From Sphaerochaeta globosa str. Buddy (GTDB taxonomy: Bacteria; Spirochaetota; Spirochaetia; Sphaerochaetales; Sphaerochaetaceae): a stretch of DNA of 64,000 nucleotides. The position numbers were made by a program, and so were the translations under genes. The notes beneath the pieces were generated by a model, which did not search any database, was not told where the DNA came from, and saw only the letters and a program-made list of their open reading frames with translations. The number at the start of each line of letters is the position of its first letter. The first letter of the stretch is position 1. Where the stretch lies: positions 2,548,458-2,612,457 of the forward strand of contig NC_015152.1 of the NCBI RefSeq assembly GCF_000190435.1, in the 5' to 3' direction. Shown here one piece after another: positions 7,462 to 47,449 of this stretch.

Positions 7462-7536
7462 TTACATTCTGGTCCCACCGATCGAGCCGGTGGATGCGAT
7501 GATATCCAGTACGTCATCATTAGTTTCCCACGACAT
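7462..7536 (-). CDS. Possible 24-residue micro-ORF after the ArdC-like gene
   Basis: An ATG at 7536 overlaps the last codons of the ArdC-like gene in another frame and is preceded by GGAGGC. The peptide MSWETNDDVLDIIASTGS continues for six residues. Position and ribosome site fit the overlapped style of this operon, but at 24 codons the evidence is thin. Confidence 0.3.
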   Translation of the reverse strand: MSWETNDDVLDIIASTGSIGGTRM

Positions 7537-8410
7537 TGTCTGCCTCCTTGTTCATGATATAGTTGGCAGCTCTCCCTGCCTTGCTTGCTGCGGTAACGAC
7601 CATCTGAGGGTCATTCCTGAGTGCCCTGAGCCAACTCTTGATATATGCTGCCGAATTCTTGTCGGTGCTCTCGTTTGCAATGCCAAGCGTGTTGAGAATG
7701 AATGATGAACCCATCTCAGCGGTCAACTCTTCCCTTGAGTAGGTTTGACTTCCGAATTTGTGGTCATCACCTTCTTCCTTGAACCTGTTGAGCCTGGAAG
7801 GATGGCCTGTGCTGTGGACCAGCTCATGGAACAAAGCGGAGTATAGTTCCTCTGATGTGAAAAACGTGTCTGGAATCGTCACGGTATCGAAAACGGGAGA
7901 GTAATAGGCTCCACCTCCATCCCTGCTGATACGTGGACAATTTGGCATGTTTCTGATGACTTCTTCGGCCTCGGTAATCGGGTTGAAATTCTGCGTAGGC
8001 TTGATGATTTCAGGGAATTCGATACCCTCTATCTGAGACGAATTGAAGACGAAATACAGGCGATAAAAACCAAATTTCTTGGTGGTTTCATCATCTTCTA
8101 TTTCATCATCCTTAACCTTTCTTTCGATGGTAGACCAGAAAATGACAGGTGTTGATTTCTCGCCTTTCTTGACGTTTCCGCCAAGTTCTCTTGCCTGTTT
8201 GAAGGTCAACCACAAAGGGCTGGAAAATCCACTCATCCCTGTGAGAATGGCATTGACACCTTGATAGGGCTTTCTGCTCTTGTAATTCTGTTGAGCCGAT
8301 TCAACCGTTGCCCAAGGTTTTCTCCAAGGAAGCTCATTGTTCTGCTCGATGAAATCAATGATTCTTTGCGTGACTATCTCATACACGGAATTTTTCTGTT
8401 CACTCTTCAT
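7520..8410 (-). CDS. ArdC-like antirestriction protein / zincin metallopeptidase
   Basis: About 296 residues. The N-terminal ArdC-like ssDNA-binding domain is clear (SVYEIVTQRIIDFIEQ, then LPWRKPW, YQGVNAILTGM and WLTFKQARELGGNVKKGE). The C-terminal half is a PolyVal-type zincin with HELVHSTGH as the HExxH metal site and a downstream glutamate in EELTAEM. ArdC-type proteins protect incoming single-stranded conjugative DNA from restriction, which fits this mobile cluster. The start at 8410 is set by AGGAG about nine bases before the ATG; the longer frame to 8461 would overlap the upstream gene more deeply. The upstream gene overlaps by 11 bases. Confidence 0.88.
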   Translation of the reverse strand: MKSEQKNSVYEIVTQRIIDFIEQNNELPWRKPWATVESAQQNYKSRKPYQGVNAILTGMSGFSSPLWLTFKQARELGGNVKKGEKSTPVIFWSTIERKVKDDEIEDDETTKKFGFYRLYFVFNSSQIEGIEFPEIIKPTQNFNPITEAEEVIRNMPNCPRISRDGGGAYYSPVFDTVTIPDTFFTSEELYSALFHELVHSTGHPSRLNRFKEEGDDHKFGSQTYSREELTAEMGSSFILNTLGIANESTDKNSAAYIKSWLRALRNDPQMVVTAASKAGRAANYIMNKEADNVVGN

Positions 8411-8627
8411 TTCGGGTATCTCCTGTGAGCCTGTACCAATCCTCGGTAAGCTCTTCGGCATCTATATCGAGATACCCTCCGTAGCATTTCTCTTCCTTCG
8501 TGTTGTACAGGAAGGTTTCCGCAATAGTCGGGTCGGGGAAGTATTGAACGAGTACCCAATCTCCTTTCCGATCGAGTACATTCATTTCCAGCTTGACCAT
8601 AATTGGTTCTTTTTCGTATAGACTCAT
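8400..8627 (-). CDS. Small hypothetical protein
   Basis: A 75-residue acidic protein (MSLYEKEPIMVKLE...) of alternating strands and charged turns, suggesting a small beta-rich fold; the ending DTRNEE overlaps the ArdC-like start. Its own ATG overlaps the stop of the small gene upstream by four bases (ATGA), pointing to translational coupling. The family is not recognised. Confidence 0.55.
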   Translation of the reverse strand: MSLYEKEPIMVKLEMNVLDRKGDWVLVQYFPDPTIAETFLYNTKEEKCYGGYLDIDAEELTEDWYRLTGDTRNEE

Positions 8628-18955: not shown

Positions 18956-21900
18956 TAAACAACTCCGTCCTTTTACTAATTGTAAATACTTCTTCATTGG
19001 ATACAACAACTTGCTTAATCAGATCCTCAAAGACCTCTTTCATATCGAAAAGATCAATAAGTTCAGCAAATGCCCAACGTCCATAAGATTTGATATTATT
19101 AACCCCACGAATCCAGAACGTCTCCATAGTAAGTTTTTTATCTTTAGCATCTTCTCTGCGATATCCTTTAATCTCAATAATCAGATGTAATAAATCTTCG
19201 TGATCATCATTAATAAGCAGGATAAAATCTGGTATATAGATCCTGCTAACTGAACCTATTCGGTAAGGAACTTCAAAACCAAGGCCATTGTTTTTTACAT
19301 AGGAGATAACCCTTGGATGACTTTCAACAATCCTACAGAATTCAAGTTCCCAATTACTATCAGCAATCGCCCAATTTATATGACATTTCTGAGAATCTGT
19401 TTGCCACCTCGTGGATTTACTAGTGGTAAAATTCACATTGCTGGTTGAACCCGTAGGGTTATAAGGATCGAGTACAACCATAATCGGATTCTCTCCACTA
19501 GAAGCTCTGGTAATTGCATTCGAAATTCTCTCACATGCAATATCAGCTAATTCTTTGTACAACAACTGTGCGGGGAAAGTGCCCTTACAGATCAAATGTT
19601 TCTCCATCCAGTCTGAGACGATTTTTTTCAATTGTCCAAAAAGAAATAACTTTGGTTCACCATTGGGATCGCGAAACTTAGTTTCCAATAGATGTTTTGT
19701 CAAAGAGTACAAAACAGTATTTCTTCTGACCTTTTCTAGATATTTAATACTCAAATCAACAGATTCCCCGATGATTCCTGAGTTCCGGGTTTCTGTTGGG
19801 CCCACAATGTCTGGGGTTAAACAGAAAGTTGAATCATCGGTGAATTCTGCTTCCAGTCTATCCTCAGGGAGCTCTGTCCGATAACCCTGAACACGTGGAA
19901 AAACAATCTCATGAGCGCTTCTTTCAGGAATTGCATTAACATGCACAGTTTCTCTTGGTTTATTGGGAGGAGCAACAATGGGCTTGGCAGTAAAATCAAA
20001 TGGAATACCTAAAACATCAGCATATTCAACATCAAACAGCCCTTCACCGTTAATCTCATATGACTGGCGTCTAAGAGCTCTTCCAATTACCTGCTCGCAT
20101 AACAACTGAGTCCCAAAGGCTCGGATTCCAAGTACATGGGTTACTGTATTAGCGTCCCATCCTTCAGTAAGCATTGCAACTGAAACAACACAACGAATTG
20201 ATCCTCCAAGCCTTTCCTTCTTACCGACAGTATTCATAACTTCTCGCAATATGTCTTGGTCGGATAAATTGTCAACAGCGTCTCGTCCTGCACCTCGCGC
20301 AAGCATTTCGCGTTTGAAACGATCTATTTCATCAGCAGCCATTGTCCTAAAGTCTTTATCAAGAGCATCGCCGGATTCTAATTGCTGTGAATCGATTAAT
20401 AAAGTTCTCGGCCGTCCGAGAGGAATTCCTGTTTCATCAAAATTTCTGAACAATTCTAGTCTTCCATTAATGAATATTTGTTTTCCATTCTCATCTTCAC
20501 GAATAAAGCCAGACACATAGTCATAGACAAGTTTAGAAGAAGCTGTGTTGTTACAGACAATTATAAAGCAAGGAGGAGTATCTATTCCTGCTTGTACCCA
20601 GAGCTTGAAAGTTTCATTGTAATGTCCATATAAAGCATCCAAAGCAGTCTGTAATTCAACGGGTAAACATAGAGGATCGAGAATAACTCCTTTTCCCCTG
20701 CCCTTCTTTGGCATTTTTGGGCCAATGTGAGTCCATAGATTTCTAAACTTTGGCATTTCACCTTGAGGAATATTATCAGCAATAGGTATTCGGGGAAGTT
20801 TGACAATGCCAGATTCAATTGCATCCATGAGTGAGAAATCACTCACGACCCAAGGGAAAAGTGTTCCTTCTGCATACCCGGAACCACGAAGAAAAAAAGG
20901 AGTTGCAGATAAGTCTAGAACAAATAAATTCCCAATTTTTCGTTTTACAGCTTCAAGACCAGTAATCCAAACACGAGCAGCATTATTGTTTTTTTCAGCT
21001 TCATCCTTATCGTCTCCAGAAAGTCCATCCTTATCAGGTTTTTCCCGGTAGCAATGGTGAGCTTCATCATTGATGATTAAAATATTCTTCAAACTCATGA
21101 GTTCGGGCATCACTCGCTGAATCATCTGCCCTTCGGTCTCCAGGGTATTTAATGCTTCTCCCCTCCCTTGTAATAGAGATCTCCCCCCCTTCGACAGCAC
21201 CATGCGTTCACGCAACATAAAAGCATGGTAATTCGTAACCACAATTTTTGCTCTCTCCAGATCAGAAAGCATATCTTTCGGGACGAGTTCTCTAACTGAA
21301 TAGTAACTATCAGGATCATTTGGGAAAAGAACTCTTAATCGATCTCGAATAGTAATGCCAGGTGCAACTATTAGAAATCCTCGTGTAAATCGTCTACTTT
21401 GAGGATGACGAACTGCATTAATCGTTTGCCAGGCGATCACCATCGCCATGACCGTAGTTTTTCCTGCGCCAGTTGCCATCTTCATCGCAATTCGTAACAG
21501 TTCTGGGTTCGCATCAAGACTTACATCTTCGATATGATTCAGGAAACTTTGCCCCTCTTTTCCTAGTCTAGGAGCTACTTCAATTAGCCAGATCAGCGTT
21601 TCAACAGCTTCAACTTGACAAAAAAATGGGCGGATTCCTGCGAACTGATGGTGCCTCCAATGCTGAAGGAGTCTTGTAGTTTCCGGTGTTACTAGCCATT
21701 CAGATGGAGGGAGCATTCGCCACTCATCAACTTTACCCCTGATTGCATTTATAACCGCATTTTCGTTGTATTGTTGTCTTTCTGTTGATAGGTTCTCTTC
21801 ATCTCCAAATAGTAAACTTGTTTGCTGTGCCTCATGTTTCTTTGCTGTTGGAAAAGGAACTATGAATTTTGCTTCACGACGAGTATTGACTATTTTCTGT

Positions 21901-21992
21901 GTAGGCTGACCTGATTCATCGAGTTCCCAGTGACGCGTTGGATATTCATACGGAGAATTTAGAATTGGATGATCAAAAAAAGGAATTGACAT
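18942..21992 (-). CDS. Type III-like restriction subunit (Res): SF2 helicase-nuclease
   Basis: About 1016 residues. The DEAD/DEAH helicase core shows MATGAGKTTVMAMVI (Walker A), INDEAHHCYR (DEAH box), and EQVIGRALRRQSY (motif VI). Near the C-terminus IPDFILLI followed by LIIEIKGYR forms a PD-(D/E)XK endonuclease site (PD...E.K). The order helicase-nuclease is that of type III Res proteins. The start (MSIPFFDHPILNSPYEYP) is favoured over 22010. The gene precedes and overlaps the methyltransferase gene, and all key motifs are present, so the system looks intact. Confidence 0.87.
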   Translation of the reverse strand: MSIPFFDHPILNSPYEYPTRHWELDESGQPTQKIVNTRREAKFIVPFPTAKKHEAQQTSLLFGDEENLSTERQQYNENAVINAIRGKVDEWRMLPPSEWLVTPETTRLLQHWRHHQFAGIRPFFCQVEAVETLIWLIEVAPRLGKEGQSFLNHIEDVSLDANPELLRIAMKMATGAGKTTVMAMVIAWQTINAVRHPQSRRFTRGFLIVAPGITIRDRLRVLFPNDPDSYYSVRELVPKDMLSDLERAKIVVTNYHAFMLRERMVLSKGGRSLLQGRGEALNTLETEGQMIQRVMPELMSLKNILIINDEAHHCYREKPDKDGLSGDDKDEAEKNNNAARVWITGLEAVKRKIGNLFVLDLSATPFFLRGSGYAEGTLFPWVVSDFSLMDAIESGIVKLPRIPIADNIPQGEMPKFRNLWTHIGPKMPKKGRGKGVILDPLCLPVELQTALDALYGHYNETFKLWVQAGIDTPPCFIIVCNNTASSKLVYDYVSGFIREDENGKQIFINGRLELFRNFDETGIPLGRPRTLLIDSQQLESGDALDKDFRTMAADEIDRFKREMLARGAGRDAVDNLSDQDILREVMNTVGKKERLGGSIRCVVSVAMLTEGWDANTVTHVLGIRAFGTQLLCEQVIGRALRRQSYEINGEGLFDVEYADVLGIPFDFTAKPIVAPPNKPRETVHVNAIPERSAHEIVFPRVQGYRTELPEDRLEAEFTDDSTFCLTPDIVGPTETRNSGIIGESVDLSIKYLEKVRRNTVLYSLTKHLLETKFRDPNGEPKLFLFGQLKKIVSDWMEKHLICKGTFPAQLLYKELADIACERISNAITRASSGENPIMVVLDPYNPTGSTSNVNFTTSKSTRWQTDSQKCHINWAIADSNWELEFCRIVESHPRVISYVKNNGLGFEVPYRIGSVSRIYIPDFILLINDDHEDLLHLIIEIKGYRREDAKDKKLTMETFWIRGVNNIKSYGRWAFAELIDLFDMKEVFEDLIKQVVVSNEEVFTISKRTELFNGKR

Positions 21993-22291
21993 GAATACCT
22001 GCCCAAACATAAATTTACATGAATTGTATAGCAGGTACTAAAAGAATGGTAGGAAAAGTATTAAAAAATTTTATTATTTAGGGACTATAACAACACAAAA
22101 CGCAAAAGACCAGTTTAATTTCATCTATGGCTGGCAGAGAGCCAATCATCTATAAAATGCGGGAACTGAATCTAGAATTCCCAGAAACACAGTTTTGCAT
22201 TTGTTTTGTCTTTTCTCTTAAATGGGAAATTTGCTTGGTCAAAAGCAGTGCGTACAGTAAATAGTGGCTATACGGCAGCGAGTGCAATGTT

Positions 22292-24001: not shown

Positions 24002-24829
24002 GTGAAGATGCAACATAAACTTTATAACAGTTCCATCACAAGAGTAAGGCCAGTATTTAAACAATTAATTCATAGGAAAAGTATGGACTGGATTCCAACA
24101 ATCTTAGAACTATGTGAATCAGAGTATGGGAAAGGACTAGTCCGTATTGTAGGTTCAATTTGCGATTACTCACTCCAGAAAAAACCCTATACAGACCCTA
24201 TACAAAAGCAACTAGGAATGAATTCGATTGATCTGGAAAACTGTTTTGAATTCTCATTGTCGCCTCCTGTAAGATTCCTTGAATGGCTGATTCAAAACCC
24301 TTTACTCATGAAATGGCCAAACGGTAAGAAGTATAGTGAACAGACAGAATACAAACGACGGAAACTTTTCAATAATGACTCCACTACAATTGCTGAAGCA
24401 TTAGAATTGTTAAGAAACAATCAAGTTAGAAACCCAAATCGAGACTGGTGGGTATTTGAAGGTTTCACAGAAGTTGATTGTCTAATCGAGACTGAGAATA
24501 TAGTTTTAGCTATTGAAGGCAAAAGGACAGAAGAAGGCCCTTCCCAATCCGTTGACTGGTATCCGCAAAGAAACCAACTGGTCAGGAATCTTGAGGCTCT
24601 CAAACAATATGTAAAGGATAAAGAATATGCTCTTATCCTTATTGATGAGGAAGGGAAATATAAACTTGAGGAGACAATGTTCACGGCAAGTCTTCCTCAC
24701 CTTTCATTAGAGGAGAGGGTTGAATTGAGAAGACACTATCTTGGGAATATTACGTGGAAGCAAGTTTGTATAGCCACAGGAATCAATTACTCAGAACTGC
24801 CAAACACTATCGATGATATCGTCAGATAA
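24002..24829 (+). CDS. PD-(D/E)XK nuclease-like protein paired with a TIR protein
   Basis: About 275 residues. The segment WWVFEGFTEVDCLIETEN, followed by VLAIEGKRTEE, has the E-x(n)-D-x(n)-E-x-K arrangement of PD-(D/E)XK nucleases, followed by a helix with PQRNQLVRNLEAL. The N-terminal 120 residues are helical and the C-terminus carries a possible HTH (TWKQVCIATGINYSEL). It starts at GTG 24002 or ATG 24008. A TATACTAT -10-like sequence lies near 23970. The next gene starts 29 bases downstream, so the two probably form an operon. It may be the DNA-cutting partner of the TIR protein or a restriction-like enzyme of its own. Confidence 0.6.
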   Translation: MKMQHKLYNSSITRVRPVFKQLIHRKSMDWIPTILELCESEYGKGLVRIVGSICDYSLQKKPYTDPIQKQLGMNSIDLENCFEFSLSPPVRFLEWLIQNPLLMKWPNGKKYSEQTEYKRRKLFNNDSTTIAEALELLRNNQVRNPNRDWWVFEGFTEVDCLIETENIVLAIEGKRTEEGPSQSVDWYPQRNQLVRNLEALKQYVKDKEYALILIDEEGKYKLEETMFTASLPHLSLEERVELRRHYLGNITWKQVCIATGINYSELPNTIDDIVR

Positions 24830-24858: not shown

Positions 24859-25941
24859 ATGAATGAACAAAACATCAAATTTGAACTTCCCAAAAAAATT
24901 GATACATGTTTAAAAATTCTTTCGAAACAATTCCAAAAACAGGGACGGAAGGATCTTCAAGAGATTGTAGTCAACTCAATCCCAAGGATTCAAACCGGTT
25001 GGTCCTTTGATAATTGGAATGGGGGAACATATGGACATGCTCTGTACTTGGCAGTTCCTGAGATAATTTACCCAAACAATGCAGATGATAAAACCGAGCT
25101 GCAAGATCAAATAACGAAAGCAATAAATAAAGTTCACGATATACAGAATGAGTTAATAGCAGAAGTTTTCATTGAGACGCAGGAGGGATCAGAAGTAATT
25201 GACTGGCGAAAAGAGTCTGGGCTTTTGCTCCCAAATAAACGAGTCATTTCAGCGCCTGTTACAGAACGTATTTGGGGAGATAAAGGGTTCCGTGTTTTTC
25301 TTAGCCATAAGACAGAAGTTAAAAAAGAGACTGCTCAACTTAAAGCAAAATTAAAATTATTTGGAATTTCATGTTTCGTGGCCCACGAGGACATTGATCC
25401 TACACAAGAGTGGCAGACTGAAATCGAAAATGCCCTTAATACAATGGACTCCTTTATTGCATTATTAACCGGTAGTTTTCATGATAGTAACTGGACAGAT
25501 CAGGAGGTTGGTTTTGCTTTCGGTAGAGGAGTTCCCATCATTTCAGTCAGGCTAGAAAGAGATCCTTACGGATTTATTGGCAAATTCCAGGCGCTATCAA
25601 GTACTTGGATTGGAGCTCCTGATAAAATTGTGCAGATTCTTATCAAGAATGATGCAATGGTAAATGCTTATATTGAAGCTATTAAAGATTGTACTAATTA
25701 TGACGAAAGTAACAAGTTATCTGAATTATTGCCATATATTGAGAAACTTTCCCAGAATCAAATTGACAATATTATTGATGCATTTAACAGTAACAGCCAG
25801 ATAAATGAAAGCTATGGATTTAATGGTAGAAAACCAACAAAATATGGTGAAGGCTTAGTTTATCATCTAAATCGCGTAAGCAAAATAGATTTCAAGCTCA
25901 CTCAATGGAATCAGATTGAGCGGCTTAATGATGTGAAATAG
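24859..25941 (+). CDS. TIR-domain protein, candidate defence effector
   Basis: A 360-residue protein. Residues 144-265 form a TIR domain: FRVFLSHKTE, LFGISCFVAHEDIDP, then WQTEIENAL with the glutamate expected for NAD hydrolysis (about residue 188), and WTDQEVGFAFGRG. The N-terminal 130 residues, with GWSFDNWNGGTYGHAL, form a separate domain I do not recognise; the C-terminal 90 residues are helical. TIR proteins of bacteria often deplete NAD upon phage infection. GAGG lies nine bases before the ATG. It follows the PD-(D/E)XK gene closely and is followed by a weak hairpin. Confidence 0.8.
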   Translation: MNEQNIKFELPKKIDTCLKILSKQFQKQGRKDLQEIVVNSIPRIQTGWSFDNWNGGTYGHALYLAVPEIIYPNNADDKTELQDQITKAINKVHDIQNELIAEVFIETQEGSEVIDWRKESGLLLPNKRVISAPVTERIWGDKGFRVFLSHKTEVKKETAQLKAKLKLFGISCFVAHEDIDPTQEWQTEIENALNTMDSFIALLTGSFHDSNWTDQEVGFAFGRGVPIISVRLERDPYGFIGKFQALSSTWIGAPDKIVQILIKNDAMVNAYIEAIKDCTNYDESNKLSELLPYIEKLSQNQIDNIIDAFNSNSQINESYGFNGRKPTKYGEGLVYHLNRVSKIDFKLTQWNQIERLNDVK

Positions 25942-26290: not shown

Positions 26291-26473
26291 ATCAGAAAAT
26301 TATTCGTAAGAGATGTTTAAAAATTGGTTTCTATTAATTCCTGCATAAAGCCAAGAATTTTTTTCAAAAACATGCTAATAGTGATATAATACATACTATA
26401 TTCCAATTATAAGGAAATTTTGATTGCCTTCCTAAAAATAAATACTTTTTTTGTTCGGAAGAAGGAGCTTGCA

Positions 26474-27400
26474 ATGCCTGAAAATATTGATCTCCAAACA
26501 AGAATGGAATGCTTTCTTAATAACCACATAATTGAAGGTATGAGCAGGGAGTGGATTGAGCATCATTACTTGACCCTTTACGATGAAATCAGCACAGATC
26601 CAGAAATGATAGATGCAAATGCGAGTCAAATCATCGAAGAAACTGAAACATATCTTCGCGATATAATAGTTTCATATGAGAAAGTAAAACTACTTGGGCA
26701 TAGTGATGCTTTTTCACAAGTCTATGCTGAAAAATTTTTTATAGAAGAGAATGACTCAACAGTTAAAGATGCTGCCTACAGATATTTATATTCACTTGAT
26801 AAAAATATATCGTATGAGGAAAAAAGTAAGCTTATATTCGATGAGGCTTACATCGATTGGCTAAAACAAGGAAAAGATCCAATCGAATGCAACAAGTATG
26901 CCCAAGAAATTTCTCATGGAGAATTCGATTCTCGAGCCACGGAAAAAGCAGAACAATATTTCCATTACTATAAGTCAGCCATAGAAAACGGTGATTCCTC
27001 CACTTATTCGAACATTTATGCTGATAGTCTTTCCAGTGGAGACCCTCTGGAATTTGCGCAAGTGAAAGCCAGGACTTATGAAGAACAGATTCTTGAGGGA
27101 AACGGGGAAGAATATTCTGAATATTATGCAGACAAGTTTGCTGATAAGTTTTTTAATGCAGACGCAAGGGGGTTGATTGAGACAGATCTAGATCGACTTT
27201 ATTATAAGATGATTGCAAGGGTTCAAGCGTATATACACTTCAACAAAGAAACCTATAATCTAAAAATATATGGAGATATTTACGAGAACATCTATCTCAA
27301 CTACTTTTTTAGTCCAGCTTCAAAAGATAAAGACTTTGTTGTCCATGAGGACTTGGAAAAAGAGATTGAAGATAAATATTATTGGAGCATTAATAGGTAA
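26474..27400 (+). CDS. Acidic helical protein with degenerate repeats
   Basis: About 308 residues, strongly acidic and tyrosine-rich. Degenerate units of roughly 35 residues centred on YAEKF, YAQEIS, YADSLSSG and YADKFADKF suggest a solenoid of helical repeats. No catalytic motif, signal peptide or membrane segment is visible. GGAG eight bases before ATG 26474 decides the start (MPENIDLQTRMECF) over an earlier ATT/ATG frame start at 26420. A TATAAT-like -10 lies near 26386. It stands alone between the TIR operon and a doubly interrupted gene. Function unknown. Confidence 0.6.
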   Translation: MPENIDLQTRMECFLNNHIIEGMSREWIEHHYLTLYDEISTDPEMIDANASQIIEETETYLRDIIVSYEKVKLLGHSDAFSQVYAEKFFIEENDSTVKDAAYRYLYSLDKNISYEEKSKLIFDEAYIDWLKQGKDPIECNKYAQEISHGEFDSRATEKAEQYFHYYKSAIENGDSSTYSNIYADSLSSGDPLEFAQVKARTYEEQILEGNGEEYSEYYADKFADKFFNADARGLIETDLDRLYYKMIARVQAYIHFNKETYNLKIYGDIYENIYLNYFFSPASKDKDFVVHEDLEKEIEDKYYWSINR

Positions 27401-32951: not shown

Positions 32952-35900
32952 TTACTCATCAATAAGCGTATCCGATTCATCACTACTGTTATGCGTAAAA
33001 TGACTTGCATGTTCTCTTGATCGGTAGTGAGGGCTCAGGTTTATAAATAAAGCTTTCACTTCCTCCTTGCTGAGATTTCCAAACTGCTCTATGAGCTCTT
33101 CCTGCCTTGGTTGACCTAAAGTTATCCTATACAAGGTAAGCACCTTGAGCAGATATTCATATAATCCCTGATCCTTGCTTAGGGTAAATTGAGGAACAAT
33201 CCTTTCAATCTTATACCTTAGACTATCATCGTTCTGGTCAGATTTTTGGATTCCCCAGAATGGAATGAGTTCAGATGATTTTCCAGCGAAAGCTTTACTG
33301 GCCAAATCAAAGATTTCTGCCCACACATCATCATTAAACTGCGCATCTCTAAACCTACTAGCTAGATTCTTCCGGATTGCAAAATTCTTGAATCGATTTA
33401 TCCTACCTTCACGTTGCTCAAAATCAATCGGATTCGAAGGCAAGTTCCAATGCATAATTCTTCTGCAGTAGTAATGAAAATCAAGCCCTTCCTGGCCTAC
33501 CGAAGTTGTTGCCAATACGAATGGGTAGAATGGAGAATTAAAAGCATGACGCAGAGCATTTTTCCGTGAAACGGCCTTGTCTTCATCCTTGGTTTTATAG
33601 AACCCGGCTGCAAAATGTGTTCGCATTGACATCTTGTTATGAGATCCATCTACTTCATGGATTCTTGAATGGAAACTTTCGCAGGAATCGACTTGAATCG
33701 AAGCGGATCTGATGTTTACGTAGGAGGATAACAGACTGAACAATAATTTCCGGTCCGACTCACTTGATGACAGCCTGTTATCCTCTGAAACCATGTGAGC
33801 CCACTCATCCAAGACAGATTGAAAGCACCCTTCACAGCAGTATCTCAAAACTTGTTTCCAATGACCCTCTCCGCTATTGAGTTTTTCAGCCAATATAATT
33901 ATGGCAATCGCCTCAGGAGAATTGAATTTATCAATCATCCTTCGTGCCAACAATGAAGATTCCAATAACAATCCATCACTACTGCGATACGCACATACTG
34001 CAGGAGATCCCACTGTCATGAGAGCTAGTACTTCCACAAGATCTTCCGGAAGTTTCCCAGTAGGAGGATCTCGCAATTCTTCTCTTACTTTTTCCAGATG
34101 CTCTATCAGATTGCTTTTGTCATCCGCCAACTCATTTTTTCTGGTTTTAATCGCATTGATCCAGTTATCTACAAACCCGTGTTGCTGTTGATTATCAAGG
34201 ATCATTGGAATCAGATAATACCAACTGGCATCTGCCTGTCCGTCATTATCAACTGAAATTTGCAAGGAGGTAATGCGTTCAGCCAAATTCTGTTTGATTG
34301 ATTGAAAAAGATTATCATAGGTTAACTTACCATTTAGGGTAGCGATGGGATCAAATATTTTTGATAGCGTCATAGAAGGATACAAGAGCGTCAAATATTT
34401 ATGTCTTTGGTTTTCCTCGATTGATCCCAACTCCAATCTTCGAGCTGGATTCCTTCTCTCGCGTTTCTCACCATCAACATCTTTCTTGGACTTTCTGGTG
34501 AAATACTTGATATTCTTCAGCTTATCCTTAAGCTTCCCTAGTGTTTTCAATTCAAGTTCATATGACATGAGCGTAGCTATCATTCGTGGCACCATTTCCC
34601 ACGATGAAAATACTAAGATTTTTGAAAACATATCTTTGTTCTTGAAAGTTCCTTCCAAAGAGAAGCACGGCGATGAAGGTGGAACCCACAGCAGCAGTTC
34701 GTTGTTTCTTTCAAAAGCAATCTTCCTCAACATTTCAAACCGGGAATTCGGAATTGAAAAATCGGTATAGGTCTGAATCTTATTCCGATTTAACCAAACA
34801 GAGGGACTCTTCAGCAGTTTCTTCTGATGTGTAGAAAGATTGCTCCATTCATTTTTAAGGAACTTTTCCAGTTTTACCTTAATCTGATACTTATCGAGAT
34901 AGGATAACAAAAATGGAGCTGATTTAGCATATTCTATAGGTAAGTTTTCTTTCCCTAGACTTCGAAAAATTGCCTGTGTATCGAGATAAGAGACAATGTC
35001 CGACTCATTCGGAATAATTGGCACCGTATGGGTTTCATTGTCGATAAGATTTCCGGCATCCTCTGCGACATGTCGTTCTGTTTTGCATATATGTTTGGTC
35101 ATTGACTGTTCAACTGTGGTTTTGGCAACCTTCACCAATGCAAATCCTTTAGGCGTGAATTCACGTAATTTTTCTGAAAACGTATTCCAGTCCGTCTGGA
35201 ATTCTTTATCAATCTCAGAATTGTTCATTAAAAAATTCATGATTCCCATGAATTCTGAGTAGTGACTTTCTTCTTGAGGATCCTCCATCTCCTCCAAAGT
35301 TGAATAGAGCTTATACGGTGTGGCGGACAGCAGGAGAACCTTGGGATCATTACCTCCCGTTGAGGCAGAAAGAAACTTTCTTGCGAGCAGAGATGTTTCA
35401 GAGCCATCGTCAGCTGAGATCAAGTTTTTAAACCTTTGAAACTCATCCATGATAATCAGATCCGGTTCCAACCTGTTGATACTGATTTCTGCAAAAAGTA
35501 TACGCAAATTGCTGATGATATCGGCCGCATACGGAGACCGGTAATCAGGATCATTATCAATCTGCTGGCAACTCTCCTTCAATTGATCAATCAAGAATTT
35601 ATGAGTAGTAGTAAAAGCTTCAGACAACTTTGTTCCCATGAAGGCCAAATACGCACCACTGCTGAGATCATTACAATTTTCGACTTGCTCTTCATAGAAA
35701 TTACAGTCCCCATCCCAGTTCCTTTCCAACATCGCTCGATCGAATTTCAGAAATGACTTCAAGGAATCATACCAGATCCCAAATTCTTCGAGAGTTTTGG
35801 TCTTATTCAGCACAGCAAGAATCAAAGCTCGTTCAGCCTTTGTTCCGCCACTGGATTTCAACGAGAAGGAAGTAGCAGGGGTAAGTGGAATCAATTGAAA

Positions 35901-36311
35901 GTATCTCCCCTCCTGACCGATTCCATTATAATTTTGATATTCCTGTTGGAATATTTTCAGATGCTGCATCGAAAGCCGGGAATCAGCGATTCGATCAACC
36001 ATGAAATCTTTCTGTCCGGTAATGATTAGTTTTCGGAGATTCTGATCGGCAATGTTCTGGTTGGAGCAGACATATACAATCTTAAACAGCTCATCACCTT
36101 CCTCTCGATGCCACCGAGCCGTGGATGCAATTACCCCCTTGGCTATCAATGTTTTACCCAGACCAACTTCATCCGCAACAAGTACACGATTGTGGCAATC
36201 ATGAAAACACTTCATGACTTGCTTGACGGTTGCCCGTTGGAAATCCTTCAGCCCAGCAAGAGCTTTTTCTTCTAGAATCTTAAGTTCTTCTGGGGTAGGC
36301 AAATTACTCAT
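32952..36311 (-). CDS. SNF2-like SF2 helicase of the DUF6361/PLD operon
   Basis: An 1119-residue protein. Helicase motif I is VADEVGLGKTLIAKG, motif II LIIMDEFQRF (DEFQ in place of DEAH), motif III LLLSATPY, and motifs V-VI TTSVGQEGLDFHYY then DFEQREGRINRF. The wide insert between the two RecA lobes (about residues 340-830) is unusual. The fold is SNF2/RapA-like: a translocase on double-stranded nucleic acid. It overlaps the PLD gene by four bases (ATGA), and is the last gene of the operon. It likely supplies ATP-driven movement or remodelling for the nuclease. It is not a recognised DISARM or Dpd component by sequence alone. Confidence 0.8.
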   Translation of the reverse strand: MSNLPTPEELKILEEKALAGLKDFQRATVKQVMKCFHDCHNRVLVADEVGLGKTLIAKGVIASTARWHREEGDELFKIVYVCSNQNIADQNLRKLIITGQKDFMVDRIADSRLSMQHLKIFQQEYQNYNGIGQEGRYFQLIPLTPATSFSLKSSGGTKAERALILAVLNKTKTLEEFGIWYDSLKSFLKFDRAMLERNWDGDCNFYEEQVENCNDLSSGAYLAFMGTKLSEAFTTTHKFLIDQLKESCQQIDNDPDYRSPYAADIISNLRILFAEISINRLEPDLIIMDEFQRFKNLISADDGSETSLLARKFLSASTGGNDPKVLLLSATPYKLYSTLEEMEDPQEESHYSEFMGIMNFLMNNSEIDKEFQTDWNTFSEKLREFTPKGFALVKVAKTTVEQSMTKHICKTERHVAEDAGNLIDNETHTVPIIPNESDIVSYLDTQAIFRSLGKENLPIEYAKSAPFLLSYLDKYQIKVKLEKFLKNEWSNLSTHQKKLLKSPSVWLNRNKIQTYTDFSIPNSRFEMLRKIAFERNNELLLWVPPSSPCFSLEGTFKNKDMFSKILVFSSWEMVPRMIATLMSYELELKTLGKLKDKLKNIKYFTRKSKKDVDGEKRERRNPARRLELGSIEENQRHKYLTLLYPSMTLSKIFDPIATLNGKLTYDNLFQSIKQNLAERITSLQISVDNDGQADASWYYLIPMILDNQQQHGFVDNWINAIKTRKNELADDKSNLIEHLEKVREELRDPPTGKLPEDLVEVLALMTVGSPAVCAYRSSDGLLLESSLLARRMIDKFNSPEAIAIIILAEKLNSGEGHWKQVLRYCCEGCFQSVLDEWAHMVSEDNRLSSSESDRKLLFSLLSSYVNIRSASIQVDSCESFHSRIHEVDGSHNKMSMRTHFAAGFYKTKDEDKAVSRKNALRHAFNSPFYPFVLATTSVGQEGLDFHYYCRRIMHWNLPSNPIDFEQREGRINRFKNFAIRKNLASRFRDAQFNDDVWAEIFDLASKAFAGKSSELIPFWGIQKSDQNDDSLRYKIERIVPQFTLSKDQGLYEYLLKVLTLYRITLGQPRQEELIEQFGNLSKEEVKALFINLSPHYRSREHASHFTHNSSDESDTLIDE

Positions 36312-38134
36312 ATCTTCGCAACCTTGATAATTGTATTAAAGACTTCATGGAATCCCGCAGGTACCGAAGGATGGTCTTGCAGGTCTTCCAACAACTTCTC
36401 AATTTCTTTCAATCTGACGGGCTTATCTGCTGCAACCTTGAGCATTTTTTCATACATCGCCGGTATGGGTTTATTGTTGCCAGATAAATCAGCTGAATAC
36501 TTCTTGAATCTTTTCAGTTCCATCACTACATCATCATAATAGTCATCGCCCATAAGCAATGACACATAGGAGATGAAGTCCTGTTCATCCCGAATGACTG
36601 ACTTTACTATAGCAGCATCCCTATCTCCAGGCATTCCAGTCAATGGTATTCTGACAATTCGTTCCAATCTTGTATCAAGATCTCCGTCTAGCTTGATCAA
36701 GAAAAATTCGCAAAGCTGTTCTTTCTTCATTTTTGAGAAAATTATTTGGGTAGTAATGTCTTTCCCTAGGTTAGGAGATAAGAGTGGAAAAAGGCTACCC
36801 TTCACATCTTCGCACACATTGGATGCACTAATTTCAAAATCAAAGAAATCATCTCCAGTAGGCTTTACCTTCCCAGCAAACTCCAGCCGTCGCAAATATC
36901 CAGTCAACTCTTCCAGTGTTTCATCCTTTGGATCTGGAACGTACTCTGGCATTTCTTCAGAAAGCAACTCGAAAGGGCTATCATCGCTTTCCAAGAGTGC
37001 TCTCGAGAGCATTTCAGTATTCAACTTTCCCCAGGTTGTCGATAGTTTCAACATAAACTCGATATTGCCACCACTAAAAGCATTGTATGAAGCATTCATC
37101 GAACCTATAAATAATTCACTTTTTGAATTATATGTTCGAAAGAACAACTTTGCATGAATATCCTGACCATCCAGATTTGTGTAATCTTCATGTTCTTCCC
37201 CGCTATGGAAAGCTTCTTCTCGTAATGAATAGATATCAAAATCCTTACGGACTCTTTCGGAAAGCTTTGATACTTCAGATCTTCTGGTAATTAGAATGGG
37301 TCTGTAATCATGTAGATTTTTCCCACTCTTCATATCAAGCAATCTTTCCAGCGGGGTTTTCTTTCCTTGACCTCCAAGAAATGGAGACATGACGATTAGC
37401 CTATCCCACTTGTTAAATAGTCCGCTATTGTCAATGGAGTATGATCCCCCAGTCCCACGAGAGATTCCCACAGGATGAAAATCAAAATCTACTTTATCTT
37501 CTCCAGAAGAGAATTTTACTTCCATGATTTCTTTTGCCATAGTTCCCAACATCTTTTTCTTCTGGCCTTGTTGAGTAGTGTCCTTGCATTGTTTCATGAG
37601 ATATTTTAGGAAATCCTGAAGAGGGGCATTCTTAGAATCCTCTTCCTTCTCTGTCTTCCCCTCTAAACAGACGGCAACATCCCAACTGCAATCAAAGGTC
37701 AAGTTACGCGAAAGTATGATTACACGCCACAAATCACTGATTCCATTCTTGAATTTTACAATCCATACTTTGGGATGAAACACATGATGAATTCTTCTAT
37801 TCGTCTTGATCTCAAAGACCATCGAATCAAGCAATCCATGTACAGGAATTATATCTTGAGGAATAAAAACCTGACCAGTCTGGCAGAACACCGCGATACG
37901 CTGGCTACTTAAAGTCAAAGCATTCAACATCCGTATGGGGTTCTTAAGACAATCGTCATCCATCGTTTCAGAAACTCCCAAAGCCATCGTAACGCCTATC
38001 AGGGAATTCAGGTCTAACGAATAGGTTGTCCCGACAGCAAATTCTGTCTCAAACCCTAAAGGTGGAGTAAGGAGCTTCATATAATCCAGTCGGTCTGATT
38101 GAGGATTCAACAGTTTCTTTTGTACATTTGCCAT
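36308..38134 (-). CDS. PLD-like (HKD) nuclease of the DUF6361/helicase operon
   Basis: A 608-residue protein with two phospholipase-D-type HxK sites: FHPKVWIVKF, with SRNLT downstream, and DIHAKLFFRT, with GSMNAS downstream. Paired HKD motifs in one chain are the signature of PLD-superfamily nucleases and phosphodiesterases. There is no signal peptide, so it should act in the cytoplasm, probably on DNA with the helicase. It starts one base after the DUF6361 stop, and its own stop overlaps the helicase start, so all three are expected in fixed amounts. Confidence 0.8.
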   Translation of the reverse strand: MANVQKKLLNPQSDRLDYMKLLTPPLGFETEFAVGTTYSLDLNSLIGVTMALGVSETMDDDCLKNPIRMLNALTLSSQRIAVFCQTGQVFIPQDIIPVHGLLDSMVFEIKTNRRIHHVFHPKVWIVKFKNGISDLWRVIILSRNLTFDCSWDVAVCLEGKTEKEEDSKNAPLQDFLKYLMKQCKDTTQQGQKKKMLGTMAKEIMEVKFSSGEDKVDFDFHPVGISRGTGGSYSIDNSGLFNKWDRLIVMSPFLGGQGKKTPLERLLDMKSGKNLHDYRPILITRRSEVSKLSERVRKDFDIYSLREEAFHSGEEHEDYTNLDGQDIHAKLFFRTYNSKSELFIGSMNASYNAFSGGNIEFMLKLSTTWGKLNTEMLSRALLESDDSPFELLSEEMPEYVPDPKDETLEELTGYLRRLEFAGKVKPTGDDFFDFEISASNVCEDVKGSLFPLLSPNLGKDITTQIIFSKMKKEQLCEFFLIKLDGDLDTRLERIVRIPLTGMPGDRDAAIVKSVIRDEQDFISYVSLLMGDDYYDDVVMELKRFKKYSADLSGNNKPIPAMYEKMLKVAADKPVRLKEIEKLLEDLQDHPSVPAGFHEVFNTIIKVAKI

Positions 38135-38135
38135 A

Positions 38136-39362
38136 TTACATCCTCAACCCATGATGAATATCTGAAAGCAACTGTAGAGCAATCGGCAACCTATAATCCA
38201 ATTCCTCGATGCCTATATTATGTTCGAGGTTAAGCTGTTGGATATTCTTGAACTTCGACCGGCTCCTTTTTAATGATTCTTCCCTTTTACGTATCAATCT
38301 ATCTGCAGTATCAAAATCCCCTGTTTTCAAGGATTCATATACCAAATTCAAGAATTGTTTTGTCTTATTTTCCGACTCCCGAGTTAGTTTCAACAGAGTA
38401 AATATTTCTTCAAGATGATTATCGCCTAGATTATTGACCTGAACGAGAGATTCTTGCCACTTTCTATCATACGATTCTCGATTCATTCCCTCTCTTAATA
38501 ACCAATTGAATCGCACATTAATGATTTTGTTGAAGGTTGCGAACCAAGATGCAAGTTGAATCTTTCTGGCCATCTCCGCATCTTTGAAGCCTGACAAGTC
38601 CAGAAGATCTTGGAAAGACAGATTATCCTTGGGCAATAAGTACCAATTATCTTGAACAAGAAAGTGTGCCAAGAGGCTTTCACTGTGGGAAGCGATAATC
38701 TTTTTTTGGAGAAAAACCGCCTCACCATAGGTCAGCTTGATCGTCGATTGGTCCAAGGAGTCAGGAATATTTTCAGGAAAATCAAAAAATGATAATCCAA
38801 TAATCATATACGCGGGGTCATCATTCAGAGCATCTTCATCATCTTCAACTTTTTTCCCAGACAACTTCCCTTGCTCACGCTTACTATGATGATTTTCGAC
38901 GAACATACAATACTGGTTGAGTGAGAAATTTTTCAGATGCTCTTCAGGAGGATCGAAAATCTTCCAAGATCGTATTCCACTCCAGTAAACACTGCTAGGC
39001 TTACGCTTCAAATTTATACCCGAGTCTTGTCCGATGATACCGCGTAAATCATCGCCTGAGTTGTCCTTCAAATCTTGAATCAATTCCAGCTCTCGCTGCT
39101 CAATCAAATCTTGCATTGACCCTTTCTTAATATTTTTCCCTGTAATTATTTCACGGAAGATGTACGGGATAAGCACAAAGTATTTTGCCCGAGTCTGTAT
39201 AGTACTGGTTCCAGGGAAGAAAATATCCGCAAATCCATCTCGAATGGCACCTATACCCAATTCATCCAAGGCAGTCTTCTGTGCCAAATTATGCAAAATC
39301 TTCATGACTTTGTCTCGTTGTTCTCTGGAAAAATCAATCCAGCCTAACTGAAGAATCTTCAT
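38136..39362 (-). CDS. DUF6361-family protein
   Basis: About 408 residues starting MKILQLGWIDFSREQ. It contains the DUF6361 signature, with DELGIGAIRDGFADIFFPG and STIQTRAKYFVLIPYIF in the first 70 residues. The rest is helical and charged. The biochemical role of DUF6361 is unknown to me; conserved aspartate/arginine-rich N-termini suggest a catalytic or nucleic-acid-binding domain. The ATG at 39362 overlaps the stop of the small upstream gene by four bases, preferred over a TTG 15 bases earlier. Confidence 0.75.
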   Translation of the reverse strand: MKILQLGWIDFSREQRDKVMKILHNLAQKTALDELGIGAIRDGFADIFFPGTSTIQTRAKYFVLIPYIFREIITGKNIKKGSMQDLIEQRELELIQDLKDNSGDDLRGIIGQDSGINLKRKPSSVYWSGIRSWKIFDPPEEHLKNFSLNQYCMFVENHHSKREQGKLSGKKVEDDEDALNDDPAYMIIGLSFFDFPENIPDSLDQSTIKLTYGEAVFLQKKIIASHSESLLAHFLVQDNWYLLPKDNLSFQDLLDLSGFKDAEMARKIQLASWFATFNKIINVRFNWLLREGMNRESYDRKWQESLVQVNNLGDNHLEEIFTLLKLTRESENKTKQFLNLVYESLKTGDFDTADRLIRKREESLKRSRSKFKNIQQLNLEHNIGIEELDYRLPIALQLLSDIHHGLRM

Positions 39363-39604
39363 ACTAGTATTACCCAATCTTTTTTGTGCTTTGCAGCAAG
39401 TACTCTTGCTTTCTCAGACTTTTTGCCCAAACAGGGATCCAATACAATTCTGTCAATAAATGCTTGGTGCGGAGCAGATACATCGTCGTCAGCTTGGAAC
39501 AAGAAATTAATTACATCAATCATGATTGTCCTAGTTGAGTCAGCACCGTTGTGGGTATAACGAAACCCAAGGTTCTCAAGCTTCAACTTCTCTACTTCAA
39601 ACAT
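39359..39604 (-). CDS. Small first gene of the DUF6361 operon
   Basis: About 81 residues, starting MFEVEKLKLENLGFRYTHNG. AGGAAGG precedes ATG 39604; the frame could begin six bases earlier at GTG. It is an alpha/beta protein with a basic C-terminus (KKSEKARVLAAKHKKDWVILV). The four-base overlap with the DUF6361 gene argues that it belongs to the system. I do not recognise the family; possible roles are a regulatory or adaptor subunit. Confidence 0.6.
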   Translation of the reverse strand: MFEVEKLKLENLGFRYTHNGADSTRTIMIDVINFLFQADDDVSAPHQAFIDRIVLDPCLGKKSEKARVLAAKHKKDWVILV

Positions 39605-39999
39605 TACCACCCTTCCTGAGTATTAAAACCATACAGCACACACCGACAAGCAGAGCAAGTAGAATCTTTGAAGTAATTAGTCAGCTTTAGTTTCAGTGAA
39701 TCTTTGTAGCACCTTTTTCTATTATATCTACATTAATAGCCAATGGAAGGGTGTTTTTAATATTTTGCTATGGGAAATTCGCCAATTCCCGGACAAGCGT
39801 ACTGATGCTGTCTATCCAAACTTTAAAGCATGCGCACACCTATAAAGCTCCTGACGCGAACAATACGGTACTCTGTAGTAGGTAGCCTTCAAAGCTTTGG
39901 CTCGGTCATATCATTTGCCATATAAGCTGAATTACTCATATTCGAGTATTATACTCACTATTAGTTACTTTTAGTTACTATTACTAAAGTCGCTCCGAA

Positions 40000-40600: not shown

Positions 40601-40692
40601 AAGTATCACTTGAATATAGCCTCTCGACACGCAATAATTGGAAGTAATTATTGTTTGTCTGCATTAGGACATCAAAAAAAAAAGGAAAGTCT

Positions 40693-42066
40693 ATGCAAAA
40701 CATTTCTTGTAATGGAATGTGGCAAATTAGTGGTATTGATCAGTCTATTCCTGGGAAACTTACTTTTTCACCTCAAACAGGGGGACGCATTGAACTTTCA
40801 TTAGGTTCCTTCGAGATAAACAAAAACTTGTCAGAAATTCTTTTAAGTGAAGGAATAACTATTCAAGGTGAGGTAAAAGACTTCTTTGATAAATATTATA
40901 CATGTCTGAATTGCAGAAGCATTACTCCATTAATCAATGTAGGCCATCAACTTACAGAATCGGTAATTGAGAATTATTACAAATCCACTAATAATACTTA
41001 TACTTATATCTTTGATTTTCTACTTGAAGATTATTCCATAGATAATATAGATGCACCTGATTTCATCTCTTGCGATGTTATCTATAATCAGTTGGAGAAT
41101 TGGCTTGACTATATCCCATACACTGTGGGGGAAAAAGGCTATCTGCAAAAAGGCAATGACAAAAAAATCTCTATAGAGATCAATGATATTAGTATACTAA
41201 TTAATGAACGAATTCTAAGCCACACTCAATTACTACCACCTAGATCGTATGTAATTGAATCAAGTCCAACAATGCAAATCATTTTCAATACAACAACATC
41301 TATCAGAGAAGTCATTTCCTATGTCGAAAAAGTAAATACATTTTTATCCTTTGTTACAGATGAAGCTTCATGGGTATCTGGTATTTCTCTTTCAAGTGAT
41401 ACTCAAAGTGGTCACTACGCTTTATATTTCAGGCAAGTGCAGTTTGGGAAAAAATTTAAACCAAAAGGAAATTGGTTAATAGATAGTGCATTAATCGAGA
41501 AAGCTCTACCCCAAATAATTATAAAATGGATTGACAGCTATGACAAAGCACCTGGAGCTTTCATCTTGTATTTTATGACTTTCTACTCATTCTCTACGCT
41601 TACCCTTGAGCAGTTGTTCCTAAATCTAGTATCAGCGTATGAAGGGTTTTATCGTGATCTCTATTCAACCAATAATAAATACATCAAGACAGCTAAATTT
41701 AGAGCCGTAAAGAGACAAATAGACACATTCATTGATAGTCTAGACACAACCGAACAACTTAAAGCAAAGTTAAAGTCTGGTATCGAGCATTCAAACCAAA
41801 AATCACTTCGTACCATGATAGAAGATGTTTTCACCAACCTTTATTTTAGGGAACGTGGAGAACCATTAACTCCTAAGAATATCAGTGATTTTCGCAATCA
41901 GTACGACCATGCAAAAAAAGAAATATCAGTAATAGAAAGGAAGAAACTGTACAGGGCATGTAATATTCTTGATAAACTCATAAAGTACATACTGCTTTCA
42001 TCAATTTTCAAATCTCTCTCACCTGAACAAACCGACAGGATTATTTTTAGTACCAATCGATTTTGA
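40693..42066 (+). CDS. ApeA-like HEPN antiphage protein
   Basis: About 457 residues. The N-terminus (NGMWQISGIDQSIPGKLTF, then GGRIELSLGSF) matches the ApeA N-terminal domain, and the C-terminal HEPN-type domain includes SDFRNQYDHAKKEIS, with R-NQYD-H as the RX4H ribonuclease motif. ApeA-type single-gene systems are known antiphage proteins whose HEPN RNase is triggered by infection. AAGGAAAG ahead of ATG 40693 decides the start over 40651. It stands alone, flanked by an IS200 element. Confidence 0.78.
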   Translation: MQNISCNGMWQISGIDQSIPGKLTFSPQTGGRIELSLGSFEINKNLSEILLSEGITIQGEVKDFFDKYYTCLNCRSITPLINVGHQLTESVIENYYKSTNNTYTYIFDFLLEDYSIDNIDAPDFISCDVIYNQLENWLDYIPYTVGEKGYLQKGNDKKISIEINDISILINERILSHTQLLPPRSYVIESSPTMQIIFNTTTSIREVISYVEKVNTFLSFVTDEASWVSGISLSSDTQSGHYALYFRQVQFGKKFKPKGNWLIDSALIEKALPQIIIKWIDSYDKAPGAFILYFMTFYSFSTLTLEQLFLNLVSAYEGFYRDLYSTNNKYIKTAKFRAVKRQIDTFIDSLDTTEQLKAKLKSGIEHSNQKSLRTMIEDVFTNLYFRERGEPLTPKNISDFRNQYDHAKKEISVIERKKLYRACNILDKLIKYILLSSIFKSLSPEQTDRIIFSTNRF

Positions 42067-45910: not shown

Positions 45911-47098
45911 TTATTCTGAGGTTGATGCAATTATTGAATCCTCTCCAGTTATATTAAAGTAGTCTATGAGATTTTTAGTTTTGGATTGTAATTCCTCCAA
46001 GGATTTTTTTCCGAAATTACGAGAACTGGCTATGTCAAATAAAGTCATTTTAGAGAACATTCCAACTGTTGTGATTTCAGCATTTAAGCAGCAATTATTT
46101 GCTCTATTAGTCAAATCTAAGAATTGAATTGGAATTAAATATATAGCTCCAGGAAGCGTCTGAATCGCTTTCTTTATAACTTCTAGCTCTGATGATGAAA
46201 GATAATCGGATAGATTAATAAAGGTTGCTCCCCAGGGAACAAGGATATTAAGTTGCCTTTTTAAAAAGTACAAAGCTTTACTCGTATTCTTCTTTTCGAG
46301 GTTTACTTGAAGTTGGCTCATTAACGTCGTTAAACTCTTAACTTGGTTTTTATGCGCTTCTTTAAATTCTTTCAAGTTCATCAGAAGAAACGAGCATCCG
46401 GTTTCTTCTTCAAATTCACTTACCAATCTTTCTTTAGATTCTTCACTTAACCAATCGTCTTTCTTATCATTTGTAACGAATATGACTTCATGCCATCCAG
46501 TTTTCTCTTTAAAAATTTCATTTGTTGCCTTTATCATTTCTTTCCATATAATAAAATCCGAATATCTACTTATACCTTTTTTCCCATTATCTTTATATCC
46601 TGGAGGTATCTGGTTCCTGAATCTAAACTCGGCTTGTTCATACAACTTTAATTTTTCTGTATATGATAAAGGCTCGCGATAAAGCCTTGACTTAATAAAA
46701 GGTTCCAAATTTGAAATTGAATCCTCACAAATAGATTTGTTTCTGCTATTTGTATTAGACTTCAATTCTTCTGCTTTCTTACATACCTTGGGGCTTAAAC
46801 ACTTGTTAGAGAACTGTTTCCAATCTGGTATTGTTTCCACTAATGCTCGTAAAGCAGTTGCGGCCTTTGCCCAATCCTGGAATGCATGATCAATTGCATG
46901 AATATTTTTATGGTTAATAGTCCTGCAAATATTTTTGTATTCTTCATAGACAGTAGGGAGGATATAAATAATATCAATGAAGGGATTGAACAAACGCTTA
47001 AAATCTTCAACACTCAGACCATCTACCTTTAAGGGTATCAGAAGAATATTGGTATCAATAAAAATCAGAGTTTTTGAATGATTGTCTCTGTTGTTCAC
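45911..47098 (-). CDS. PIN-type nuclease with C-terminal RNA polymerase alpha-CTD-like domain
   Basis: About 395 residues. The N-terminal PIN-like domain (PIN_8/DUF4935 type) has LIFIDTNILLIP, a central GISRYSDFIIWKEM and VIFVTNDKKDDW, supplying the acidic residues of a metal-dependent RNase. The last 60 residues (NCCLNAEITTVGMF, then SSRNFGKKSLEEL) match the helix-hairpin-helix of the RNA polymerase alpha C-terminal domain. The combination suggests a nuclease held at DNA or at a transcription complex. GTG 47098, with GGGGGG just upstream, is the likelier start than TTG 47119. It lies next to the tRNA-derived attachment site. Confidence 0.72.
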   Translation of the reverse strand: MNNRDNHSKTLIFIDTNILLIPLKVDGLSVEDFKRLFNPFIDIIYILPTVYEEYKNICRTINHKNIHAIDHAFQDWAKAATALRALVETIPDWKQFSNKCLSPKVCKKAEELKSNTNSRNKSICEDSISNLEPFIKSRLYREPLSYTEKLKLYEQAEFRFRNQIPPGYKDNGKKGISRYSDFIIWKEMIKATNEIFKEKTGWHEVIFVTNDKKDDWLSEESKERLVSEFEEETGCSFLLMNLKEFKEAHKNQVKSLTTLMSQLQVNLEKKNTSKALYFLKRQLNILVPWGATFINLSDYLSSSELEVIKKAIQTLPGAIYLIPIQFLDLTNRANNCCLNAEITTVGMFSKMTLFDIASSRNFGKKSLEELQSKTKNLIDYFNITGEDSIIASTSE

Positions 47099-47449
47099 AA
47101 ATCCCCCCTTTTTCCTCAATTTTCATAAAGCAAATACCTGAGAATGGTTAAGTATACTATATGAAGTCTTCTTGCGTATAACCTTTATATTTTTTGGATT
47201 CAGTAATTGCTCAGCAATTATTTACCGGCATCAGTATTCAATATCATAGGTAAAACTTTTTGCTGACTCGAACACTCCCAACCGATTTATATACATAATC
47301 AGATATTAGGAAGTACACTCTTTTCCAGAAATCCTTATGCATCATCCATGGCCTCATAAGTTACATTAATCAATGTGAGAAGTTACAATAATCAATCGAC
47401 TAATATCACAATATCTGATATCTGTGTTTAAATATCAACATTCTAGGTA
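47099..47449. other. Intergenic region
   Basis: AT-rich spacer between divergent genes. It should hold both promoters, but I see no convincing -35/-10 pair. Repeated short words (TATCATA, AATATC) are not organised. Confidence 0.4.

Follow-up and report, generated by a model that had tools for sequence, protein, structure and literature searches.

SauUSI and NgoAVII/CglI pair a phospholipase D (PLD)-superfamily nuclease with an SF2 ATPase, the ATPase driving translocation or switching and the PLD domain cutting DNA (PMC7913695). Hachiman joins a nuclease to a sensor helicase without a methylase and offers a model for DNA-state sensing (PMC12278908). The same source lists ZacC as the SF1/SF2 helicase of another system, Azaca, which is also listed with a PLD-like domain and credited to Millman et al. 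2022 (PMC10952713). Our literature search found no paper on the mechanism of Azaca, and it was empty under "Zac" or "DUF6361" because the system was published as Azaca.

Here, we describe how a locus of Sphaerochaeta globosa str. Buddy compares with these systems. The window analysed is the whole 64,000-nucleotide stretch of contig NC_015152.1 from position 2,548,458 to 2,612,457, and all coordinates below are those of the window unless another record is named.

Results

Operon organization and family identity

Four open reading frames run head to tail on the minus strand within 32952-39604 (Table 1). The initial annotation had described a four-gene arrangement joined by 4-base overlaps and a 1-base gap, and all four ORFs and their joints were confirmed: the leader ORF and zacA share a 4-base ATGA overlap (39359-39362), zacA and zacB are separated by one base, and zacB and zacC overlap by four. 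The leader ORF encodes 81 aa from its ATG, or 83 aa if the upstream GTG at 39610 is used. Promoter and terminator scans gave scores no better than those for shuffled sequence.

Table 1. Features of the window discussed in the text (coordinates in the window)
Feature	Coordinates	Strand	Description
zacA	38136..39362	-	DUF6361 protein, 408 aa
zacB	36308..38134	-	PLD-superfamily phosphodiesterase, 608 aa, two HxK...N half-sites
zacC	32952..36311	-	SNF2/RapA-like SF2 helicase/translocase, 1119 aa
Leader ORF	39359..39604	-	81 aa, BREX BrxA N-terminal stub, probable relic
Stretch common to sister genome G001	39481..39796	-	78% DNA identity, E 1.1e-64
Type III R-M pair	16157-22010	-	PADLOC MTase_III methylase (E 0) with a ResIII-type restriction subunit
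TIR-domain protein	24859-25941	+	PF13676, 5.9e-15; weakly resembles TIR proteins of the ThsB type
ApeA-like HEPN protein	40651-42066	+	PF18862, PF18739
PIN-like domain protein	45911-47119	-	PF18476; odd fusion with an RNA polymerase alpha C-terminal-like domain
ArdC-like anti-restriction protein	7520-8461	-	with zincin-like peptidase domain

The earlier assignment of the first long gene to DUF6361 stands (Pfam PF19888, 2.6e-33), and the three long genes match the PADLOC models of the Azaca subunits: ZacA with PDLC03828 (7.8e-90; residues 10-411 of the 413-aa ORF on positions 4-394 of 396), ZacB with PDLC03829 (4.4e-132) and ZacC with PDLC03830 (2.7e-288), the last two covering nearly the whole model. 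That is, ZacA, ZacB and ZacC are all present at full length, as adjacent genes of one strand in the order A-B-C, with the PLD HxK pairs and the helicase Walker A and DEFQ motifs intact. These family matches and the gene lengths identify the locus as an intact copy, with three genes, of the already catalogued Azaca phage-defence system. It departs from the other copies in two respects: it is divergent, with ZacA at most 39% identical to that of the fetched loci and placed on a long, isolated branch of the ZacA tree, and it is placed behind a brxA stub. The possibility that the locus represents an uncatalogued four-gene system, which the initial annotation had left open, is not supported: both PADLOC and DefenseFinder already include Azaca, and what had been taken as a fourth gene appears to be a truncated brxA relic (below).

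Other known systems were considered and set aside. DISARM also contains a PLD protein (DrmC) and an SNF2-like helicase (DrmD), and ZacC matches DrmD weakly, in the C-terminal helicase domain. However, ZacC scores 52 bits on the DrmD model against a cut-off of 610, and no DrmA, DrmB (DUF1998) or methylase was found in the operon or the scanned neighbours, which agrees with the initial remark that the operon lacks DUF1998 and a methyltransferase. BREX was rejected since no brxC, pglX or pglZ occurs among the operon and neighbouring ORFs scanned, only the N-terminal stub of brxA, and a one-gene PLD-helicase fusion gave a weak local match only. Hachiman (HamAB) resembles the locus in its nuclease and sensor helicase and in having no methylase, but HamB is a Ski2-like helicase and the system has two genes and no ZacA. 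HamA is not known to be a PLD nuclease.

Island context

The reading of the four genes as a co-transcribed defence operon within a variable island rich in insertion sequences (IS) and defence genes is supported: IS21-, IS1595- and IS200-type elements are present in the window, together with the defence-related genes listed in Table 1. The ArdC-like gene suggests a conjugative or integrated element at the window's left end. The neighbours of the TIR gene (24002-24829 and 26420-27400) gave no family matches. The ApeA-like gene is divergent to an IS200-type transposase gene that adjoins the Zac operon.

ZacB resembles Tdp1 in its active-site residues and predicted fold

A single ZacB chain contains both half-sites, H120/K122/N144 and H327/K329/N347, and the H, K and N of each are invariant in 70/70 homologues. 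The protein had been called a double-HKD nuclease; both HxK motifs stand, but neither half has a conserved D at K+5 and each has an invariant N instead. By these residues the sites are HKN rather than HKD, as in Tdp1, whose two half-sites are named in this way (PMC12280126).

The AlphaFold model of ZacB is a two-domain PLD fold (pLDDT 87.6, pTM 0.90) with HxK...N in each half, as expected of a Tdp1-like protein. VIA-align, in which rows at most 1 Z apart count as tied, placed Tdp1 first (Z 22.0, rmsd 4.2, 327 residues aligned) and PLD3/PLD4 next at Z about 21 (PLD3 21.3), with a bacterial phospholipase D among the latter at Z 21.1 and other classical phospholipases D below. The likeness to Tdp1/PLD3/PLD4 (Z 21-22 over ~320 residues) is structural, with sequence identity of only ~10-14%, and, unlike these proteins, ZacB has an additional beta-rich and helical part at its C-terminus (about residues 405-608), as well as a helicase partner. 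The sequence profile of ZacB gave weak matches to nucleases only (NucT, BfiI and the NgoAVII R subunit). SauUSI and BfiI differ from ZacB in having one HxK motif per chain and acting as dimers, and ZacB has no recognised target domain, whereas SauUSI/NgoAVII/CglI carry SRA or B3 recognition domains. Single-protein sequence searches of the PDB with the Zac proteins gave no match; profiles gave the nucleases and RapA.

Alternatively, Zac might kill the infected cell, with ZacB attacking membrane phospholipid upon a trigger from ZacC/ZacA. Ranked by E-value, the Foldseek matches of ZacB are headed by two-motif phospholipases D (human PLD1/2), with SauUSI, BfiI and NgoAVII also listed, and the PLD superfamily holds many lipid enzymes. 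We consider such a role very improbable, given that the profile finds nucleases alone, that the structural alignment is topped by Tdp1 and PLD3/PLD4, the Z of classical phospholipases being comparable or lower, that both motifs are HKN, and that the partner helicase belongs to a family acting on nucleic acids.

ZacC and ZacA

The initial call of an SF2 helicase with a DEFQ box was borne out by Pfam (ResIII and Helicase_C), and Walker A (GxGKT), DEFQ and motif VI (QRxGRxxR) are invariant in 43/43 homologues. The second RecA domain of ZacC is also interrupted by a large insertion, and the protein's nearest solved relatives by profile are RapA. The AlphaFold model of ZacA is all-helical (pLDDT 86.4, pTM 0.84). 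A fold search with this model gave nothing at E<=0.001 in the PDB or in BFVD (best Z 3.8), and neither a fold nor a motif that supports a sensor role was found in ZacA. The alignments behind the structure models comprised the window and genome-contig loci only, with plasmid and phage record rows left out.

zacABC is a conserved and patchily distributed module

A ZacA profile scan of 84,980 species genomes identified at least 545 loci. We fetched 80 of them, and 62 of the fetched loci, with at least 5.6 kb after zacA, were informative. The automatic A-B-C test was passed by 58; three of the four failures were due solely to an early start codon chosen for the zacB ORF, and in the remaining one (L007) intact B and C follow a broken zacA. 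Hence, the A-B-C order is kept in 61/62 informative loci, far beyond chance, and spans Bacillota, Bacteroidota, Pseudomonadota, Planctomycetota and archaea. This answers the initial annotation's proposal to look for PLD and helicase genes beside DUF6361 elsewhere, and DUF6361 is not the mostly solitary gene that the annotation said would speak against its reading. Plasmid loci from Halomarina, Haliscomenobacter, Rhizobium and Cronobacter carry the same genes with no common fourth gene, and one locus (L006) lies on a human gut phage contig record. Megablast of the window operon against plasmids gave no match, and viral-contig scans with ZacA, the ZacA alignment and the 81-aa protein found no relatives.

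Closer to the window, ZacA occurs in only 1/26 genomes of the genus and in 7/296 sampled genomes of the phylum at E<=0.001, two of them weak. As judged from sequence occurrence, this patchy pattern is that of a mobile defence module. It also fits the earlier expectation that such loci lie in variable islands, as does the variable island at the window locus itself, and we propose that zacABC was acquired horizontally into a variable defence island.

The leader ORF is most likely a stub of brxA

The 81-residue protein, initially without a recognised family, matches the N-terminus of BrxA (PADLOC PDLC02450, 1.1e-13) over profile positions 5-73 of 259 only. It is most likely the N-terminal quarter of BREX BrxA, the remaining 5' part of another, disrupted defence gene. 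Among the 26 genus genomes, no full-length or intact BrxA was found, only stubs. The sister genomes G001 and G017 carry this promoter region and related brxA stubs ahead of other genes. In G001, the match (316 bp, 78%) runs from the upstream non-coding DNA through codon 41 of the stub; a stop comes next, and then a gene for an OLD-like ATPase/TOPRIM nuclease. The stub of G017 is shorter and broken and lies close to a nagA-like gene, and this genome contains another part of the upstream region at a distance of 18.6 kb. Both neighbouring genes are named from their translations.

All three stubs have the same orientation as the lysine-tRNA ligase gene and lie upstream of it, at distances of ~8, 28 and 60 kb. 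The stub sites are at ~2.819 Mb in G001 (L108), ~2.678 Mb in G017 (L110) and ~2.588 Mb in G000. The site, with its 8 to 60 kb of variable cargo, is a defence-island hotspot of the genus. We interpret the stubs as a single old BREX start that occupies a fixed position in the island, downstream of which the cargo appears to have been replaced repeatedly; zacABC would then have been set behind the promoter region and roughly the first 77 codons of a disrupted brxA.

It could also be argued that the BrxA N-terminal fragment belongs to Zac as a genuine fourth subunit, namely a helix-turn-helix (HTH) DNA-binding module for target recognition or operon regulation, as the ORF has remained open, is co-directional with zacA and overlaps it by ATGA, and derives from a DNA-binding protein made of HTH modules (PMC12839542). 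We judge this quite improbable. Specifically, phmmer found no related ORF ahead of zacA in the other loci covered, the stub precedes an OLD-type nuclease gene in G001 and is broken near the nagA-like gene in G017, and the coverage of BrxA is limited to the short segment given above. Further, between the window and G001 the stub coding DNA (76% identity) is not better conserved than the preceding non-coding DNA (82%), and 24 of the 30 base differences in the stub fall in amino-acid-changing codons; that is, this short stretch gives no sign of purifying selection. The brxA stub is thus probably a leader ORF or a relic rather than a subunit of Zac. It may still serve zacA through translational coupling, since zacA starts in the ATGA overlap and no separate ribosome-binding site for it is obvious.

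In Cloacimonadota (L010, L017 and L019), a 131-aa protein overlaps the start of the zacA ORF (DUF6508, PF20118, in L010), and is possibly a lineage-specific fourth gene.

Junctions with type I R-M and BREX

In at least eight loci, in scattered branches of the ZacA tree, zacA starts 5-62 bp after hsdR; one further locus overlaps hsdR, and in Haliscomenobacter (L003) zacABC lies between hsdS and hsdR. In a planctomycete (L079), brxHI of BREX ends 10 bp ahead of zacA. Direct R-M linkage requires at least five changes on the ZacA tree, so the link arose or was lost repeatedly, and shuffling revealed no clustering of the link beyond chance. The loci in which zacABC is directly joined to type I R-M operons include L006 (4026-19346), L031 (6911-9988 and 10001 on), L025, L055, L051 and L003. 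The L006 record also shows an hsdS-recombinase-hsdS arrangement.

These junctions, their scatter over the tree and the brxA stub ahead of zacA in the window would all be consistent with Zac being an accessory restriction module, whose choice between self and non-self is set by the methylation of a partner type I R-M or BREX system. This is possible, if rather unlikely: most zac loci lack such a partner in the operon, the identified methylase system neighbouring the window's operon is a type III R-M system ~11 kb off, and the general clustering of defence genes could account for part of the association with R-M.

A related speculation, which we regard as unlikely, is that ZacB is not a plain endonuclease but a Tdp1-like DNA-end phosphodiesterase, that Azaca recognises and processes DNA ends, including protein- or adduct-capped ones, and that zacABC is a portable add-on finishing DNA opened by type I R-M or BREX. 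If true, such an add-on role would account for the repeated insertion of zacABC directly behind hsdR.

Discussion

Taken together, we consider it likely that the locus is an intact Azaca anti-phage operon, acquired horizontally and set behind a broken brxA start, with nuclease-helicase degradation of invader DNA as the most likely mechanism. By analogy with the layouts of SauUSI, NgoAVII/CglI and Hachiman, we favor a model in which DNA degradation by ZacB is licensed by ZacC and ZacA. Under this model, ZacC would bind DNA and move along it using ATP and, with ZacA as sensor or adaptor, would recognise an invader-specific DNA state, the candidate states being ends, replication or recombination intermediates, or the lack of a host mark. 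Such recognition would license ZacB to degrade the invader DNA. ZacB itself would be a phosphodiesterase of the Tdp1/PLD3 type, which we expect to work without metal, and its two HxK...N halves would combine into a single active site within one chain. We infer DNA as the substrate, ATP-driven translocation, the sensor role of ZacA and the trigger.

The results have implications for how such loci are named and read. DUF6361 is the ZacA subunit of Azaca, and therefore no new system name is needed for the locus. Further, a small coupled ORF heading a defence operon can be the relic of an earlier occupant of the island. Finally, the HKN sites, the Tdp1/PLD3-like fold and the repeated position behind hsdR lead to direct, testable predictions.
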